59,093 nucleotides of DNA from a virus: the IMG/VR virus record IMGVR_UViG_3300017782_004064, positions 1 through 59,093 of that record. One strand, written 5' to 3'. The position numbers and the translations under genes are program-made. This document shows, piece after piece, positions 1 through 59,093 of this stretch (the first letter of the stretch is position 1; each line of letters opens with the position of its first letter). The notes beneath the pieces are model-generated. The model was given only the letters and a program-made list of their open reading frames with translations. It was not told the origin of the DNA and did no database searches.

Positions 1-174
1 CTCGCCGCGCTGAAAATATTAACAGTAAAGTTGAAAGAATACACTTGACAGACAGCTCAGATAGTTCTAGTATAGAGTCTGAAGATTGCACAATGTGTGA
101 AGGATAAGTTAATTTATTAGAACCAACTGTAAAGGAACAGAACGATGAAACTGCCATCAATTAAAGGAAAAAAG
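1..174. repeat. Left copy of the contig end overlap, deletion form
   Basis: Bases 1-107 match 58569-58675 with two substitutions that I can see (t26 versus c58594, a104 versus c58672). Bases 109-174 match 59028-59093. The 351 bp that separate these two blocks at the right end are missing here. This is the overlap expected from a circular or circularly permuted genome, but the two ends represent different sequence variants. Confidence 0.9.
3..107 (+). CDS. nrdA: NrdA C-terminus, partial (same gene as 56852..58675)
   Basis: The reading frame open from the window edge encodes the last 34 residues of the ribonucleotide reductase large subunit, ending in the C-terminal cysteine pair (CTMCEG) and a TAA stop. 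It is the same protein end as at 58675. The only differences are silent changes, such as GGA for GGC in the last codon. It is a contig-end fragment and not a second gene. Confidence 0.9.
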   Translation, partial: RRAENINSKVERIHLTDSSDSSSIESEDCTMCEG

Positions 175-429
175 AAAGCAACAACTAAAAAGGAAGCTAC
201 CAAGAAAGAAGCCCCTAAAAAGAAAGGGCCTAAGCTGGGACATTTCTCTATTCGTAAGTCAGGAGATGGTCAGTTCTATTTCCTTCTAGTAGCAGGCAAC
301 GGAGAAGTAATTATGCAATCCGAGATGTATACTCAGAAGATAGGCGCTAAGCGAGGCATTGAGGCTATTAAATACCACGCTAGTAAGGCCCCTGTTCGGG
401 ATAACTGTCCAGATGGCCGATCAAGCTAA
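145..429 (+). CDS. DUF1508 (YegP-type) domain protein
   Basis: This 94-residue protein has a very lysine-rich N-terminal tail (about residues 1-28) followed by one DUF1508/YegP unit. The typical signature is visible: GQFYFLLVAGNGEVI, then SEMYTQKIGAKRGIEAI. Members are short beta-beta-alpha domains, often in tandem pairs in bacteria, with no agreed function. The basic tail suggests nucleic acid or ribosome contact, which is inference. AAGGAAC lies upstream of the ATG. It sits between nrdA and the prs-like gene in the rightward nucleotide operon. The copy at 59064 is the same gene cut by the contig end. Confidence 0.8.
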   Translation: MKLPSIKGKKKATTKKEATKKEAPKKKGPKLGHFSIRKSGDGQFYFLLVAGNGEVIMQSEMYTQKIGAKRGIEAIKYHASKAPVRDNCPDGRSS

Positions 430-564: not shown

Positions 565-1401
565 ATGCCAATAACATTAATAGACAAACGATTTGATAGC
601 GAGATTACTTACGAGTCATTTACCTTCTCAGGAGGCGAGGAGCACGTTAAGGCACGAATTCCTGTACATGCCAGCGTTGAGGTGGTTGCTGAGCTGTGGA
701 GCTCTAAAGATCTTGTACAGCTTCTGTTAGTGTGCGACTCGCTAGACAGGCAGGGGAGAGCATACGAGCTTAAAATACCTTACTTTCCTTATGCTCGCCA
801 GGATCGGATATGTGATTACGGAGAGGCATTTAGCTTACGAGTAATTACTGACATAGTTAAGCGGTTACAGTACTACTCTCTAGTTATTGAGGATCCGCAT
901 AGCGACGTTACAGCGGCCTTATTAGAAGATGAAGATACCAGACTCACTGTCCGGCCCCAGCATAACTTGATTCCTCCTAAGCTGATTAAAGGAAAGCTGT
1001 TAGTATGTCCTGACGCAGGAGCTGAGAAGAAGGTCTTAAAACTAGCTCAGAAGCATAAAACTGATTATATCCTAGCAACGAAAGTGAGAGACGTCACAAC
1101 TGGAGAGATCACCTCTACAGAAGTATATGCTACTCGTAATACAGTAGAGGGGAAAGACTGCATTATAGTTGATGATATCTGTGACGGTGGCCGTACTTTC
1201 ATTGAGCTGGCAAAAGTCTTGAAAGCTAAAGGTGCTAAGACGGTTACTCTCTATGTGACTCATGGAATTTTCTCTAAAGGATTTTTAGCTTTACAGCCTC
1301 ATATTGATCAGGTATACTGGAGAAACAATCCTCCTCTTTTAGGAGAGAAAGAACAATTTGATACTTTAAAGATAACAGGCTTAAAAGGGAAGAAACTATA
1401 A
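565..1401 (+). CDS. prs: Prs-family (deoxy)ribose/ADP-ribose pyrophosphokinase
   Basis: This 278-residue protein belongs to the PRPP-synthetase family. It shows YFPYARQDR (73-81), EDPHSD (109-114), a flexible-loop K-V-R (173-175) and the phosphoribosyl motif VDDICDGGRT (202-211). Cellular Prs proteins are about 310-315 aa, so this one is short. The usual DTGGT of the PRPP loop is DGGRT here. Prs makes PRPP from ribose-5-phosphate and ATP. In the phage pathway NARP1 a family member (Adps) instead pyrophosphorylates ADP-ribose. The immediate partner downstream is a NAMPT-family gene, the NARP1 arrangement. Which substrate it uses cannot be read from the sequence. Confidence 0.9.
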   Translation: MPITLIDKRFDSEITYESFTFSGGEEHVKARIPVHASVEVVAELWSSKDLVQLLLVCDSLDRQGRAYELKIPYFPYARQDRICDYGEAFSLRVITDIVKRLQYYSLVIEDPHSDVTAALLEDEDTRLTVRPQHNLIPPKLIKGKLLVCPDAGAEKKVLKLAQKHKTDYILATKVRDVTTGEITSTEVYATRNTVEGKDCIIVDDICDGGRTFIELAKVLKAKGAKTVTLYVTHGIFSKGFLALQPHIDQVYWRNNPPLLGEKEQFDTLKITGLKGKKL

Positions 1402-1440
1402 TGGAATACTATCAAACAGCCATAACCAAGGAATAGACAG

Positions 1441-3171
1441 ATGCATAAAAACCCACTACTAGCAATTGATTTCTATAAAGCCGATCACCGACGTCAGTAC
1501 CCTGAAGGGACTAACTATGTCTTCAGCAACCTAACACCTCGAAGCGATCGTTTAAGTAACCTGCCAAGCGACTCACCAGTAGTCTTTTTTGGATTGCAGT
1601 ACTACTGCCTAGAGTTCCTACAGGATTGCTGGGGAGATAATTTCTTTATGCAGCCTAAAGAGAAAGTGGTAGCAGACTACAAAGAGGTCATGGATTCAGC
1701 TTTAGGTCCAGATGCTTTCCCACTAGACCACATTGAAGCATTACACGACTTAGGGTACTTACCAATCAAGATTCGAGCACTTCCTGAAGGATCTACTGTT
1801 AAGCATGGCGTTCCAGTGCTGACTATTGAGAACACTCACCCAGACTTTTTCTGGCTAGTAAATTACTTAGAGACTTCTCTGTCAGCTTATCTGTGGAAGA
1901 TGTGTACTTCAGCAACTACTGCTCGTTGGTATCGAAGTTTAGTGTTAGATTTTGCTCAGCGGACAGCCTCTGAGGCTAGCTCTGCATTAGTGCCTTTCCA
2001 GTGCCATGACTTCTCATTCCGAGGCATGTCTGGCCTAGAAGATGCGGCCATGAGTGGAGCTGCCCACTTACTTTTCTTTAGCGGCACTGATACAGTACCA
2101 GCGATAGATTTTGTTAAGAACTACTATAGCGCTGAAGGCTTCATAGGCGGCTCTGTACCAGCTACTGAACACAGCGTAATGTGCATGGGCTCTAAAGAGG
2201 GAGAATTCCAGACATTTGAAAAGCTCATAAAAGAGACCTACCCCAGTGGGATAGTTTCTATTGTATCTGACACATGGGACTTCTGGAAAGTAATGACTGA
2301 ATATCTACCAGCTCTTAAGGATGATATTCTAGCTAGAGATGGCAAGGTAGTAATTCGCCCTGATAGTGGAGATCCTGTGGATATTATTTGTGGTACTTTA
2401 GAGACTTATGATTTCAGCCAGTATTTTGGAGAAGGTTCTAAAGAGTATGAATCTGATGAAGAATTTATTAAAAGCGTAAAAAGATTCGCTCGTGACAAGC
2501 TGTTAGAAGTGGCTCACGACTTACAAGAATTTGGCTGCTACGGTGAGAATAATTTTGAAGCTATCTTTACAGTAGGTGATAGAAGTTTCTATGGTAGAGT
2601 TTATATAGAATATAATCGTCACGATAAGACATACTACTATATAGACGATGCTACTGTAACAGAGTTTTCAGATATCTCAAATATCGAAGCCTCACAAAAA
2701 GGCGCAATAGAAGTTCTATGGGATACCTTCGGAGGAACAGTTAACGAGAAAGGCTATAAAGAGTTAGACTCGCATGTTGGCTTAATCTACGGAGATTCCA
2801 TCACGCCGCAGCGCGCAAAGACTATCCTAGAGCGCTTAGAAGCTAAAGGGTTTGCCAGCACGAATGTAGTCTTCGGTATCGGCTCTTACACGTATAACTA
2901 TACCACTAGAGACACTCACGGCTTTGCTGTCAAGGCTACTTACGGGGAAGTGAAAGGCAAAGGAAGAGAAATCTTTAAAGATCCTGCCACCGACAACGGC
3001 ACTAAGAAGTCTGCGAAAGGGCTCTTGAAAGTAGTGGCTGGTGAGCTGAAGGACGAACAGACTAAAGGACAGATGGCTGAAGAGGATGATTTCGAAGTAG
3101 CCTTTGAAGATGGTAATGCCAGAATTGACTATTTTGACGACATCCGCTTAACAGCTTTAAGCACTATTTAG
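1441..3171 (+). CDS. nadV: Nicotinamide phosphoribosyltransferase family (NAMPT/NadV or Namat)
   Basis: This 576-aa protein aligns by eye with NAMPT along its length. It has GTDT (215-218; substrate-binding Asp), ATEHS with H244 matching the catalytic His, VSDTWD (275-280), IRPDSGDP (305-312) and GDS (451-453). NAMPT joins nicotinamide to PRPP to give NMN. In NARP1 the homologue Namat uses ADP-ribose pyrophosphate and gives NAD+ directly. Compared with the ~490-aa human enzyme it carries an extra segment of about 100 residues (roughly 318-420) inserted before the GDS region. It lies 39 bp after the prs-like gene in the same operon. No adenylyltransferase (NMNAT) is visible in the window. Confidence 0.92.
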   Translation: MHKNPLLAIDFYKADHRRQYPEGTNYVFSNLTPRSDRLSNLPSDSPVVFFGLQYYCLEFLQDCWGDNFFMQPKEKVVADYKEVMDSALGPDAFPLDHIEALHDLGYLPIKIRALPEGSTVKHGVPVLTIENTHPDFFWLVNYLETSLSAYLWKMCTSATTARWYRSLVLDFAQRTASEASSALVPFQCHDFSFRGMSGLEDAAMSGAAHLLFFSGTDTVPAIDFVKNYYSAEGFIGGSVPATEHSVMCMGSKEGEFQTFEKLIKETYPSGIVSIVSDTWDFWKVMTEYLPALKDDILARDGKVVIRPDSGDPVDIICGTLETYDFSQYFGEGSKEYESDEEFIKSVKRFARDKLLEVAHDLQEFGCYGENNFEAIFTVGDRSFYGRVYIEYNRHDKTYYYIDDATVTEFSDISNIEASQKGAIEVLWDTFGGTVNEKGYKELDSHVGLIYGDSITPQRAKTILERLEAKGFASTNVVFGIGSYTYNYTTRDTHGFAVKATYGEVKGKGREIFKDPATDNGTKKSAKGLLKVVAGELKDEQTKGQMAEEDDFEVAFEDGNARIDYFDDIRLTALSTI

Positions 3172-3187: not shown

Positions 3188-4210
3188 ATGACTAATTTAT
3201 TTGAGAGAGACACAGAAGCTTACAAGCCGACGTCTTACCCAGAAGCTTATAATTTCTGGCTAGAGCAGCAACGAGTTCATTGGCTGACTGAAGAGGTGCC
3301 TATGGATAAGGACTTGCAAGATTGGGTTCGGATACTGACTGACGAGGAGCGTAACTTCTTAACACAGATCTTTAGGTTCTTCACTCAAGGTGATGTGGAC
3401 GTAGCTTCTGCCTATTTAGATAAGTACATACCGACCTTTGGCAAGCACCCTGAAATCAAGATGATGATGACAGCCTTTGCTAATATGGAGACAGTCCACA
3501 TTGACGCCTACTCGAAGCTTATCGAGACAGTTGGCATGGCAGACACTGAGTATGAGGCTTTCCTTGACTATGAAGAGATGGCTGCTAAGCACAACTATCT
3601 TAATTCTGTAGAGATCAACTCAGGAGTAGGGATGCTCTATGAGCAGGATAAGACAGACCCTGACAATCTCATCATTACAGATAAGTCCTTGCGAGACGCT
3701 GCTAAGGCGCTAGCTATCTATTCAGGCTTTACAGAAGGCTTACAGCTGTTCAGCTCATTTGCTATGCTGCTTAACTTCGCTAGGTTCGGAAAGATGAAAG
3801 GTATGGGTCAGATTGTAACTTGGTCTATCCGTGACGAGACTCTCCATGTAGAGGGCATGACGTGGTTGTTCCGCCAGCTAATTACTGAGAATCCTCACAT
3901 CTGGACTGATGATTTCAAGCACGAGATCTATCAAGCATGCCGTGACATGGTGGAGCTGGAAGATGGCTTTATCGACTTGGCTTTCGAGCTAGGGGGAATC
4001 GAAGGACTCTCGCCAGCTGAAACTAAAGAGTTTGTCCGTTACATCGCTGACAGACGTCTCTTACAGTTGGGGTTGAAGCCTAATTACGGAATTAAAGAAA
4101 ACCCTTTACCTTGGTATAATGACATGTTAAACTCGGTAGAGCACGCTAACTTTTTCGAGACTAGAGCCACTGAATACAGTAAAGGCACTATGACGGGGAG
4201 CTGGGATTAA
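3188..4210 (+). CDS. nrdB: Class I ribonucleotide reductase, small subunit
   Basis: This is the radical-generating beta subunit that pairs with NrdA (56852..58675) to reduce ribonucleotides. It is 340 aa. Metal ligands and the radical site are visible with E. coli-like spacing: D69 or D71, E101 and H104 (METVH), Tyr108 at the position of the tyrosyl radical, E183, E217 and H220 (RDETLH). The C-terminal tail, which docks on NrdA, ends EYSKGTMTGSWD. Retention of Tyr108 argues for a conventional tyrosyl-radical enzyme. AGAGAGGA-like sequence precedes the ATG, 16 bp after the NAMPT-like gene. Confidence 0.96.
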   Translation: MTNLFERDTEAYKPTSYPEAYNFWLEQQRVHWLTEEVPMDKDLQDWVRILTDEERNFLTQIFRFFTQGDVDVASAYLDKYIPTFGKHPEIKMMMTAFANMETVHIDAYSKLIETVGMADTEYEAFLDYEEMAAKHNYLNSVEINSGVGMLYEQDKTDPDNLIITDKSLRDAAKALAIYSGFTEGLQLFSSFAMLLNFARFGKMKGMGQIVTWSIRDETLHVEGMTWLFRQLITENPHIWTDDFKHEIYQACRDMVELEDGFIDLAFELGGIEGLSPAETKEFVRYIADRRLLQLGLKPNYGIKENPLPWYNDMLNSVEHANFFETRATEYSKGTMTGSWD

Positions 4211-4213
4211 CAC

Positions 4214-4963
4214 ATGGGAGACGAGAAGGTGTCAGTAACACTATTAAATAACATGGGAGATGACTTGACAGTAGTAAATGCTGCTAGAGTCTCATTCGCA
4301 AAAACTTCAACGTACATCCTACCTGAAGAGCCTGCTGGAGTAGACGAGCATGGAGAATACTGGGAAGAAGAGCTTAGAGAGGGCGATAAGAAGCTAATCA
4401 GCTACCTAGCCAAACATGGACACTGGACTCCGTTCAGCCAGCCTCAAATACAGCTTCACTACAAGATGCCTATATTCGTAGCTAGACAGTGGTTCAAGCA
4501 CACAGTAGGCTTTACACGCAATGAGGTCAGCAGACGCTATATCGCTGAGTCTCCCGAGTTCTGGGAACCTGCAAATGGCTGGAGAGGAGTTGCTGACGAC
4601 AAGAAACAAGGGAGTTCTGACGAGAAAGTATTAGAGAATCCTAGTTTAATTTATGCCTCTGCCGCACCTCTGGGAGTCAGTACAGAAGCTCTACCGTACG
4701 CAACTTATAGAGACCTTCTTGCTAGCTGTAAGCAGTGGTATCTTGATAATGAGCATATCTGTCCAGAACAGCGGCGAGCACTACTACCGCAAGCCATGAT
4801 GACAGAATTCCATGAGACGGGCTCTCTAGCTGCTTATGCTAGGTTAGTTAACTTACGCAATAAGCCGGATGCTCAGAAAGAAACTCAGGAGTATGCAGAA
4901 CTAGTTGACAAGCTCATCTCTCCGCTGTATCCTGAGAGTTGGAAAGCTTTAACTGGAGGATAA
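4214..4963 (+). CDS. thyX: Flavin-dependent thymidylate synthase ThyX
   Basis: This 249-aa protein carries a ThyX signature, with R91 and H96 in RQWFKHTVGF followed by RNEVSRRY (102-109). The N-terminal NAARVSF (22-28) and WTPFSQ (71-76) are also typical. The enzyme methylates dUMP to dTMP using methylenetetrahydrofolate and FAD/NADPH, and would supply dTTP for phage replication together with NrdAB. It starts 3 bp after the nrdB stop. There is little Shine-Dalgarno sequence in that gap, so translation is probably coupled to nrdB. Confidence 0.95.
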   Translation: MGDEKVSVTLLNNMGDDLTVVNAARVSFAKTSTYILPEEPAGVDEHGEYWEEELREGDKKLISYLAKHGHWTPFSQPQIQLHYKMPIFVARQWFKHTVGFTRNEVSRRYIAESPEFWEPANGWRGVADDKKQGSSDEKVLENPSLIYASAAPLGVSTEALPYATYRDLLASCKQWYLDNEHICPEQRRALLPQAMMTEFHETGSLAAYARLVNLRNKPDAQKETQEYAELVDKLISPLYPESWKALTGG

Positions 4964-6507: not shown

Positions 6508-6678
6508 ATGCATTACCGATCAGAAGACTTATTACATAACATTTCAAGCCGAGCCTGTGAAGGGGCTCATGATAGTCCTGACGGCATGCTCTATGAAGAG
6601 GTTATGAGCATACTTGCCAGAAAGATTGTAGAGCTAGAGAAGCGAATTAACATATTGGAGGAAGATGATGACATTTAA
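6508..6678 (+). CDS. Unrecognised 56-aa protein
   Basis: This short ORF starts one base after the previous stop and runs 14 bp into the next gene. The second half (residues 34-51, VMSILARKIVELEKRINI) is a heptad-like helix, followed by an acidic end. Its end carries the GAGGAAG ribosome binding site of the downstream pyrophosphohydrolase gene. Confidence 0.55.
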   Translation: MHYRSEDLLHNISSRACEGAHDSPDGMLYEEVMSILARKIVELEKRINILEEDDDI

Positions 6679-7156
6679 GAAATTTGATACGGATAAGCTG
6701 CACCCATCACTGCTACCAGTAAAGCCTCTCGAAGAGGTCATTAAAGTACTCATGTTTGGCGCTGAGAAGTATGGACGAGATAACTGGAAAGAAGCCACTG
6801 AAGAGGACCAGGTACGTTACCTCGATGCTCTTATGAGGCACGCTATGGCATATGTTGACGGAGAGGAAGCTGACGAGGAAACTGGACTAAGCCATCTAGC
6901 ACACCTAGCTTGCAATGCCTTATTCTTACTAGAGTTTGGCTTACAAGAAAAGACAGCTGAGCAGGAAGTGCCCTCTTTAACTCCCAACTTAGACGCCTAC
7001 TACTACGAGCTTTCTAAAATAGATATAGACCAGTATAACCGAAACAGAGCGCCTGAGGATCAGCTTACTTGTCCGAAAGCTGCCTATAAGGTCTCTCATG
7101 AAGGCTCTGGAGACTATAAAAAGTACAAAGTCACGAAGGACTGGAAAGAAACGTAA
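6665..7156 (+). CDS. DUF5664-type dATP/dGTP pyrophosphohydrolase-like protein
   Basis: The first ~100 of 163 residues match the DUF5664 pattern (N-terminal domain of phage dATP/dGTP diphosphohydrolase, all-alpha NTP pyrophosphatase fold). Visible are FGAEKYGRDNWKE, then RYLDALMRHAMAYVDGE and GLSHLAHLACNALFLLEF. Acidic and His residues in these helices bind metal and nucleotide in the family. Residues 105-163 form an extra tail. Such enzymes trim the dNTP pool; in phages with modified purines (MazZ) they process dGTP. No PurZ is seen here, so a housekeeping role is more likely. It is the last rightward gene before the convergent terminator. Confidence 0.75.
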   Translation: MMTFKKFDTDKLHPSLLPVKPLEEVIKVLMFGAEKYGRDNWKEATEEDQVRYLDALMRHAMAYVDGEEADEETGLSHLAHLACNALFLLEFGLQEKTAEQEVPSLTPNLDAYYYELSKIDIDQYNRNRAPEDQLTCPKAAYKVSHEGSGDYKKYKVTKDWKET

Positions 7157-56785: not shown

Positions 56786-56820
56786 CCCCAGCTGGGCTAG
56801 CGTTTGGCTGGGGTTTTTTA
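56786..56820 (+). terminator. Intrinsic terminator/attenuator in the nrdA leader
   Basis: CCCCAGC (56786-56792) pairs with GCTGGGG (56807-56813), followed by six T. A competing 10-bp palindrome CCCAGCTGGG (56788-56797) uses part of the same sequence. It both ends upstream transcripts and could attenuate the short promoter at 56724. Confidence 0.8.
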
Positions 56821-56851
56821 TTCCCAAAATTTAGCCATAAAGGAACGCACA

Positions 56852-58675
56852 ATGATTGAAATTGACCTCAGCAGAGACCGCCTAATAGACGACTACGCAA
56901 TGAAAACTTACAAGGAGCGCTATCTAGTGGAGGGTGAGACAAGCCCTCAGGAGGCGTATGCTCGAGCTGCCCAGGCGTTTGCAGAGGACGATGACCATGC
57001 ACAGCGCATGTATGACTATGCTAGTCAGCACTGGCTGATGTTCGCTACTCCAGTCTTAGCTAACGGAGGAACTACCCGAGGCCTACCTATTAGCTGTTAC
57101 CTTAACTTTGTTGATGACTCCCTCACTGGCATTACAGAGCACTGGACAGAGAACACCTTCCTCAGCTCTAAAGGTGGCGGCATAGGAAGCTACTGGGGAG
57201 CTATCCGTACCGAAGGGGAGAAGACTACTAAAGGCTCAGCTTCTAATGGCATGATCCCTTTCATGAAGGTGGATGACACTCTCACCTTAGCTGTCCAGCA
57301 AGGCAAAGTCCGTCGAGGCTCTAGCGCTATCTATTTAGACATCAGCCACCCAGAGATTGAAGAGTTCCTAGAAATCCGTAAGCCCAGCGGCGGTGACTTT
57401 AACCGTAAATGCTTAAATATACACAATGCAGTTAACATTACAGATGACTTTATGCGTCTCATTGAGAAACGCCTAGAAGATAAAGAGGCTGATACCTCGT
57501 GGGACCTTGTAGATCCTAACAGTAAAGAAGTGCGCAAGACGGTCTGTGCGTGGGATCTCTGGATTAAGATCCTCACTCTTCGCATGGAGACAGGGGAGCC
57601 TTACGTGCACTTCATTGACACCTCTAATAGAGAGCTCCCTGTGCACCAGAAGGCTTTGGGTCTAGAAATTAACCAGAGCAATTTATGTTCAGAAATTATT
57701 CTACCAACTAGCCCTATGCGAACTGCTGTATGCTGTCTCTCTTCAGTGAACTTAGAGAAGTTTGACGAGTGGAAAGACACACAGATGGTAGAGGATATGG
57801 TGTTGTTCCTTGACAACGTCTTGCAGTACTTCATAGAGAACGCTGATGAGGGCTACATGGATAAGGCTATCTACTCAGCAAAAAGAGAGCGCTCTATTGG
57901 AATAGGCTCTATGGGCTTCCACGCTTATCTCCAGAAAAACATGATCCCTTGGAATTCTATGGATGCTCACTTGTTTAACGTGAGTGCTTTTAAACTTATC
58001 AGAGAGAAGGCAGAGGTAGCTACAGCTGCGATTGGGCAGATTAAAGGATCAGCTCCAGACTATGATGATGGTATGGCCTTAGCTAATCACGGACTTCCTC
58101 CTAAGATGGCTCGACGTAACTCTCATGTTATGGCTATTGCTCCTAATGCGTCTATCAGCATCCTTTGTGGGAATACATCTCCCAGCATTGAACCTTACAG
58201 CTCAAACTGCATAGCCCAGAAGACGCTGTCAGGAACTAACTTCTTAATGCCAAAATACTTGCGGATACTCTGCGCAGAGCGAGGACTTAACGAGGAGGAG
58301 ATTAAAAGTAAGATTGCTTCGTCAGGAGGCTCTATCCAGGATCTTGATGAGTTCACGGCTGAAGAGAAGGCTGTCTTTAAGACGGCTTTCGAGATTGAGC
58401 AGTCTAGCATCGTACATCACGCAGCAGTTCGTCAACAGTTTATTGATCAAGCACAGTCTGTCAATTTGTTCTACACGCCAGGCACTAACAAGAAGAAATT
58501 CTTGAGTGATCACTTCACTGCTTGGCAGAGAGGCTTAAAGACTCTGTATTACTGCCGTAGCCAGTCCTCTCGCCGCGCTGAAAATATTAACAGCAAAGTT
58601 GAAAGAATACACTTGACAGACAGCTCAGATAGTTCTAGTATAGAGTCTGAAGATTGCACAATGTGTGAAGGCTAA
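56852..58675 (+). CDS. nrdA: Class I ribonucleotide reductase, large subunit
   Basis: The ATG at 56852 has AAGGA eight bases upstream; a frame extension into the terminator is rejected. The 607-aa protein has active-site C82 (ISCYLN), N277-L-C279-S-E281, C294 or C295 (AVCCLSS), Y566/Y567 of the radical pathway (LYYCRS) and a C-terminal pair C602/C605 that is re-reduced by thioredoxin or glutaredoxin. Pro/Asn loop APNASISILCGNTSPS is typical. There is no N-terminal ATP-cone, so dATP feedback inhibition is probably absent. Its partner NrdB is across the contig junction at 3188. Confidence 0.97.
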   Translation: MIEIDLSRDRLIDDYAMKTYKERYLVEGETSPQEAYARAAQAFAEDDDHAQRMYDYASQHWLMFATPVLANGGTTRGLPISCYLNFVDDSLTGITEHWTENTFLSSKGGGIGSYWGAIRTEGEKTTKGSASNGMIPFMKVDDTLTLAVQQGKVRRGSSAIYLDISHPEIEEFLEIRKPSGGDFNRKCLNIHNAVNITDDFMRLIEKRLEDKEADTSWDLVDPNSKEVRKTVCAWDLWIKILTLRMETGEPYVHFIDTSNRELPVHQKALGLEINQSNLCSEIILPTSPMRTAVCCLSSVNLEKFDEWKDTQMVEDMVLFLDNVLQYFIENADEGYMDKAIYSAKRERSIGIGSMGFHAYLQKNMIPWNSMDAHLFNVSAFKLIREKAEVATAAIGQIKGSAPDYDDGMALANHGLPPKMARRNSHVMAIAPNASISILCGNTSPSIEPYSSNCIAQKTLSGTNFLMPKYLRILCAERGLNEEEIKSKIASSGGSIQDLDEFTAEEKAVFKTAFEIEQSSIVHHAAVRQQFIDQAQSVNLFYTPGTNKKKFLSDHFTAWQRGLKTLYYCRSQSSRRAENINSKVERIHLTDSSDSSSIESEDCTMCEG

Positions 58676-58693
58676 CTAGAAAGGATACTTAAA

Positions 58694-59083
58694 ATGTTTA
58701 ACCGGAAACTAAAGAAACGGATAGCTTCTCTTGAGGCTCTACTTGGAGTTACGTGGTACGGGAGGATGGAGTGGCACGGCTGTTACTCTTCAGATGTTAA
58801 GAAGGGCGGCTATTATGATGCAGTTAGGATACTGGCTGTCAGCAAGGAGCAAGCAGAGGCTCTAATTAAAGACGCCACTCGAAAGGCGCAGAACGACACA
58901 GCTCAAGATATTAACAGCTGGGGAACAAAACTGTTAGCCTATTTAGAGCATGCCGGTATTAACTACTCCTACGGAGACATTGAAGTATACCCAACTGAAT
59001 TCATGAAAATGGACAACCTAAAAGATCTTAATTTATTAGAACCAACTGTAAAGGAACAGAACGATGAAACTGCCATCAATTAA
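58694..59083 (+). CDS. Unrecognised 129-aa protein, absent from the left-end variant
   Basis: This basic-to-neutral protein follows nrdA with an AACTAGAAAGGA leader. Residues 1-18 are basic; SLEALLGVTWYGRMEWHGC and VSKEQAEALIKDATRKA suggest a small alpha/beta domain. Its last 18 codons, but not its start, remain in the left contig end, in frame with the nrdA stop. The end of the gene overlaps the DUF1508 gene. Presence/absence between variants marks it as non-essential. No function is recognised. Confidence 0.65.
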   Translation: MFNRKLKKRIASLEALLGVTWYGRMEWHGCYSSDVKKGGYYDAVRILAVSKEQAEALIKDATRKAQNDTAQDINSWGTKLLAYLEHAGINYSYGDIEVYPTEFMKMDNLKDLNLLEPTVKEQNDETAIN

Positions 59084-59093
59084 AGGAAAAAAG
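59064..59093 (+). CDS. DUF1508 protein, partial at the window edge (same gene as 145..429)
   Basis: The first ten codons (MKLPSIKGKK) are identical to those at 145. The gene is interrupted only by the contig end. Confidence 0.85.
   Translation, partial: MKLPSIKGKK

Follow-up and report, generated by a model that had tools for sequence, protein, structure and literature searches.

The window, i.e., the whole stretch of DNA analyzed here (a virus record 59,093 bases in length), carries two adjacent genes, adps and namat, which very probably form a NARP1 module, their enzymatic function being assigned by analogy with characterized relatives. Their products belong to the Prs-like and NAMPT-like families, respectively, the latter possesses the adenine-clamp and nicotinamide-site residues of Namat, and no NMNAT-type gene was found in the contig. 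The genes of the locus are as follows:

565..1401, + strand, adps, predicted Adps-type ADP-ribose pyrophosphate synthetase (Prs-like), 278 aa (families, tree, residues)
1441..3171, + strand, namat, predicted Namat-type nicotinamide ADP-ribose transferase (NAMPT-like), 576 aa (families, tree, residues, fold)
145..429, + strand, DUF1508 protein of 94 aa, upstream neighbor
3188..4210, + strand, nrdB, ribonucleotide reductase small subunit, 16 bases downstream of namat
4214..4963, + strand, thyX, flavin-dependent thymidylate synthase
56804..58675, + strand, nrdA, ribonucleotide reductase large subunit, lying just upstream of DUF1508-adps-namat if the contig is closed

In the proposed mechanism, a host defense NADase (TIR, SIR2 or similar) would break NAD+ down to nicotinamide and ADP-ribose. 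Adps would then add pyrophosphate to ADP-ribose at the expense of ATP, giving ADPR-PP, and Namat would join nicotinamide to ADPR-PP to yield NAD+ directly, allowing infection to continue on the rebuilt NAD+. The conversion of ADP-ribose through ADPR-PP to NAD+ has been established for NARP1 relatives, with the Adps/Namat pairs of SPbetaL1 and DyoEdafos being tested enzymes (PMC12774641, PMC13232231). For the window pair, both reactions and the counter-defense role are predicted from these relatives.

The adps and namat genes lie on the same strand with a gap of 39 bases and no gene between them. Namat followed by adps, the opposite of the window order, was seen in eight other loci (L064, L066, L067, L069, L110, L111, L112, and L113). 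The ends of the contig overlap, with positions 1–107 matching 58569–58675 at 98% and positions 109–174 matching 59028–59093 at 100%; the two ends differ by 352 bases (58676–59027) containing most of a 129-aa ORF. The genome is thus likely to be self-closing, the difference between the ends being a probable strain variant located between nrdA and the DUF1508 gene. As its ends overlap, little of the genome is likely to be missing. The gene order upon closure would be nrdA, (ORF129), DUF1508, adps, namat, nrdB, and thyX. As the pair lies within this run of nucleotide genes, it is likely to be expressed together with the replication genes. It should also be noted that a dATP/dGTP diphosphohydrolase-like protein (PF18909) is encoded at 6665–7156, and that the phage also possesses a family A DNA polymerase.

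The position of the pair inside the nucleotide-biosynthesis run nrdA/nrdB/thyX would also agree with a module that is NARP1 by descent while mainly serving NAD+ supply or ADP-ribose recycling during normal growth, independently of any host NADase, and NARP1 modules do occur in bacterial genomes too (PMC12774641). This is considered unlikely, with the tested NARP1 systems countering NADase defenses and nothing found that points to another role.

The phage itself is HMO-2011-like and of marine type. Its terminase shares 53–55% identity with the terminases of HMO-2011 and of the Roseobacter CRP phages, while the first 20 kb had no near DNA relative among 50,697 phage records. No match to Namat was present in the four described relatives tested (HMO-2011, ctYwJ313, CRP-13, and CRP-9); in HMO-2011, nrdA is followed by two small genes and then a MazG gene. 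A metagenomic contig close to the window in size (L027, 59,580 bp) was found to carry a Namat close to that of the window along with a terminase of HMO-2011 type (45%).

The protein of 1441–3171 falls in the NAMPT/NAPRTase group of PHROGs (E = 4.5e-192), with which Pfam and NCBIfam agree. To place it further, a tree of 120 proteins was built by a quick search with support by SH-aLRT only; this separated seven classical or NARP2 NAMPTs from 113 others (SH-aLRT 100), with the window Namat on the side of the 113 together with the SPbetaL1, DyoEdafos, ICP1, and Felixounavirus proteins. In a careful tree of 42 rows, it fell within a set of eight with 99/99 support. The structure of SPbetaL1 Namat has been solved with nicotinamide and NAD+, which defined an adenine clamp with the signature GSX-phi-X-phi-X-phi-TRD, aromatic residues at motif positions 3 and 7, and residue R40 of the selectivity-clamp loop (2026 paper, PMC12774641). 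The corresponding features of the window protein are:

1549..1551, + strand, Namat R37, corresponding by alignment to R40 of SPbetaL1, which belongs to the selectivity-clamp loop (SCL) and stacks on adenine
2170..2172, + strand, Namat H244, aligned with the phosphorylated catalytic His of NAMPT/Namat
2881..2913, + strand, Namat selectivity-clamp helix motif GSYTYNYTTRD, residues 481–491, matching the published signature (PMC12774641)

GSYTYNYTTRD together with R37 fits this signature exactly, and all published ADPR-PP selectivity-clamp residues were found in the window protein (R37, Y483, Y487, T489, and D491), so that the pocket comparison suggested in the earlier note came out in favor of Namat. 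The nicotinamide/ribose site (D10, Y12, F191, R194, D217, A241, R306, D308, and R490) is identical to that of SPbetaL1 Namat, and the catalytic core of the latter (F189, D215, R306, and the catalytic His) corresponds to F191, D217, R306, and H244 of the window protein, bearing out the conserved catalytic His previously described for this 576-aa protein. Among the contact residues listed, the only changes from SPbetaL1 are F392Y and A362S, the latter also being present in the DyoEdafos and Felixounavirus Namats. Sequence search of the PDB gave SPbetaL1 Namat as the best hit (507 bits), followed by Haemophilus ducreyi NadV (443) and the Xcc and mammalian NAMPTs (209–241). A structure model (mean pLDDT 89) used in a PDB fold search gave the same ranking, with Namat 9w5x/9w5w first (E 1e-57), H. 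ducreyi NadV next and then NAMPT at 27% identity.

The NAMPT/Namat clade was rejected as proof of function when taken alone: the NadV proteins of Pasteurellaceae are placed within the Namat clade or adjacent to it, and since these include the NMN-bound protein of H. ducreyi, clade membership by itself does not establish ADPR-PP use. Grouping of NadV with classical NAMPT was rejected (AU p = 0.005), with NadV siding with Namat; it may have arisen from a Namat through loss of the clamp and the partner. The Pasteurellaceae NadV loci (L122, L125, L128, L135, L157, and L160) were observed to have no Adps neighbor and to have the clamp aromatics replaced, e.g., GAQTYQRNTRD.

This closeness of NMN-forming-type NadV to Namat bears on plain NMN salvage, in which a phage PRPP synthetase would feed an NMN-forming, NadV-like NAMPT, with a host NMN adenylyltransferase completing NAD+. 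The automated names of the two proteins (ribose-phosphate diphosphokinase and nicotinate/nicotinamide phosphoribosyltransferase) are also in keeping with it, as is the activity of Namat in vitro, where it forms NMN from PRPP roughly half as fast as human Nampt does (PMC12774641), making some PRPP use by the window Namat possible. However, the aromatic clamp is missing from those NadV-type and classical NAMPTs that have no Adps neighbor, whereas the window protein has both aromatics and an Adps-clade neighbor. In a set of 119 proteins, presence of the clamp was associated with that of an Adps nearby, with both present in 93, neither in 15 and a mixed state in 11 (Fisher p = 1.5e-10, without correction for kinship); a kinship-aware pair test provided five usable pairs only. 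As the Prs-like protein also lies outside the chromosomal Prs clade (see below), NMN salvage is regarded as highly unlikely. The preference for NARP1 over such salvage put forward in the earlier note is therefore upheld by both trees, the clamp residues and Namat being the best-matching solved structures.

The Prs-like partner contains the following feature:

1171..1197, + strand, Adps phosphate-binding loop DDICDGGRT, residues 203–211, with Gly replacing the Thr of Prs DTGGT

PHROGs placed this protein in a Prs/phosphoribosyltransferase group (E = 8e-73), again in agreement with Pfam and NCBIfam, although the ribose-phosphate diphosphokinase model TIGR01251 was barely passed (118.6 bits, with a cut-off of 113). 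A tree of 110 Prs-like proteins was constructed from 100 proteins encoded near a Namat/NAMPT homolog, window included, and 10 chromosomal Prs drawn from ten of the bacterial genomes already sampled in the tree. The two groups were separated by one branch with an SH-aLRT of 100, and the split remained at 99 after adding the PDB Prs 4twb and 3dah and the Adps of phage Bas63, both trees being quick searches with SH-aLRT as the only support. At the 11 positions separating Adps from Prs, the window protein has the Adps-majority residue in every case (11/11). The protein of 565–1401 thus differs from Prs both in this placement and in its DGGRT loop. Both proteins thus group with verified Adps and Namat, apart from chromosomal Prs and from classical and NARP2 NAMPTs, and the PRPP synthetase and nicotinate phosphoribosyltransferase functions suggested by the NCBIfam and Pfam names are contradicted by the trees and residues.

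The earlier note had drawn attention to DGGRT in place of DTGGT in this 278-aa protein. The ORF and loop are indeed present, but the loop was rejected as a private marker of the window protein, being widespread in the Adps clade, including Bas63 Adps: the position occupied by Thr in Prs (DTGGT/DTAGT), one of the 11 discriminating positions, is Gly in 91% of Adps. The loop also varies inside the Adps clade, since the Adps of SPbetaL1, a tested enzyme, has Phe at this position. The Adps structure was still unresolved according to PMC12774641; modeling of the window protein (mean pLDDT 83) gave PRPP synthetases as its structure matches, as expected.

A NAMPT-family protein is also what NARP2 would require, in combination with a phage NMN adenylyltransferase. 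Even at E ≤ 10, however, no match to an NMNAT-type nucleotidyltransferase (CTP_transf_like, PF01467) was detected across the contig, confirming the previously reported lack of such a gene, and the overlapping ends leave little that is likely to be missing. The NAMPTs of phages PG07, with its adjacent cytidyltransferase, and PVA8 also lie across the SH-aLRT 100 branch from the window protein. NARP2 is thus scarcely credible for this locus.

In addition to its NARP1 features, the window Namat contains an insertion absent from the earlier note:

2383..2712, + strand, Namat 110-residue stretch (residues 315–424), a helix plus three-strand module with NRHDKTYYYID, about 90 residues longer than in SPbetaL1 Namat

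Between RPDSGDPVD and the next conserved block there are 19 residues in SPbetaL1 Namat and 110 in the window, and this single insertion accounts for the greater length of the window protein. Bas63 Namat has a 96-aa stretch at the same site, and a long insertion here is therefore compatible with NARP1. In the model, the insert forms a helix and three strands with a pLDDT of about 50–85, and the module matched no Pfam family and no PDB entry. A scan for the NRHDK motif in viral contigs yielded 77 stretches, from which 75 proteins were recovered: 35 of the NAMPT family and about 40 other ORFs, mostly free-standing and of 100–160 aa. A profile built from the Namat inserts scored all of them (75/75), but the proteins had been selected by the motif, which inflates these scores. 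Independent support came from a CEGSxNxG...Y stretch upstream of the motif, shared between the free-standing copies and certain Namat inserts. On sequence grounds, the Namat insert is judged to be homologous to these small (~110-aa) free-standing phage proteins.

The NRHDKxYYYxD module was seen as a free-standing protein of ~110 aa in, for example, Delftia phage PhiW-14 (gp210; L225:1779–2141; others in L226–L302). A tie of the module to NAD metabolism was considered but is poorly supported: the 37 contigs in which a free-standing copy occurs gave only one Pfam macro-domain match and two Namat-family matches. The few neighbors of free-standing copies that were examined include ThyX, SSB, Gp157, RegA, and clamp-loader genes. 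In one viral contig of 353 kb (L237:4848–6926), a free-standing NRHDK protein is flanked on one side by an AAA_28 protein, whose N-terminus is weakly nucleotidyltransferase-like and resembles NadR by eye, and on the other by a protein resembling a macro domain by eye, for which there was no Pfam match. It is possible, if doubtful, that the insert, as a module borrowed from the free-standing family (signature ...CEGSxNxGxxxY...EYNRHDKTYYYID), regulates or tunes Namat or tethers it to a phage or host partner. If so, there would be controlled forms of NARP1, and a binding function would be common to the free-standing proteins. A phage module without a name that is inserted in many Namats provides a handle on whether NARP1 is regulated.

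NARP1 is already known and widespread, with 1,937 phage records matching the window Namat and 1,362 the window Adps at E ≤ 1e-5, both figures taking in relatives of the NAMPT and Prs type. What is new here is the phage lineage, which extends NARP1 to marine phages of the HMO-2011 type, and the unnamed inserted module. Elsewhere, the pair is mostly misannotated as ribose-phosphate pyrophosphokinase and nicotinamide or nicotinate phosphoribosyltransferase.

Among known systems, the NARP2-type NAMPT of Vibrio phage PG07 shares the NAMPT fold with the window Namat but lacks the clamp motif, has a cytidyltransferase as its partner and is without an Adps in the stretch that was fetched. H. ducreyi NadV (PDB 9ke8/9keo), the second-best solved structure, is 40% identical to the window Namat and its structures contain NMN and NAM; in related proteins of the Pasteurellaceae, the clamp aromatics are replaced by Gln/Arg. 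Escherichia phage JohannRWettstein (Bas63, MZ501086) has the same Adps loop as the window, DDICDGGRT, and its Namat has the clamp GSYTYQYMTRD, while its insertion is without the NRHDK motif and overall identity to the window is low. Bas63 is reportedly one of the phages used in the original NARP1 experiments. For that work, the preprint PMC13232231 mentions only E. coli and Vibrio phages. The DyoEdafos NARP1 (MN234187), whose Adps-Namat pair is reported to make NAD+ in vitro (PMC13232231), falls in the same clades as the window in both trees; it has a RyDEP cADPR-cleaving gene between adps and namat, whereas the window has none between them. The SPbetaL1 NARP1 (OQ921341) differs in its Adps loop (DDLSSFGGT) and in its 19-residue Namat stretch, but it resembles the window in adps-namat order, clamp, nicotinamide site, catalytic His, and clades in both trees, with the two Namats being 54% identical in their shared alignment.
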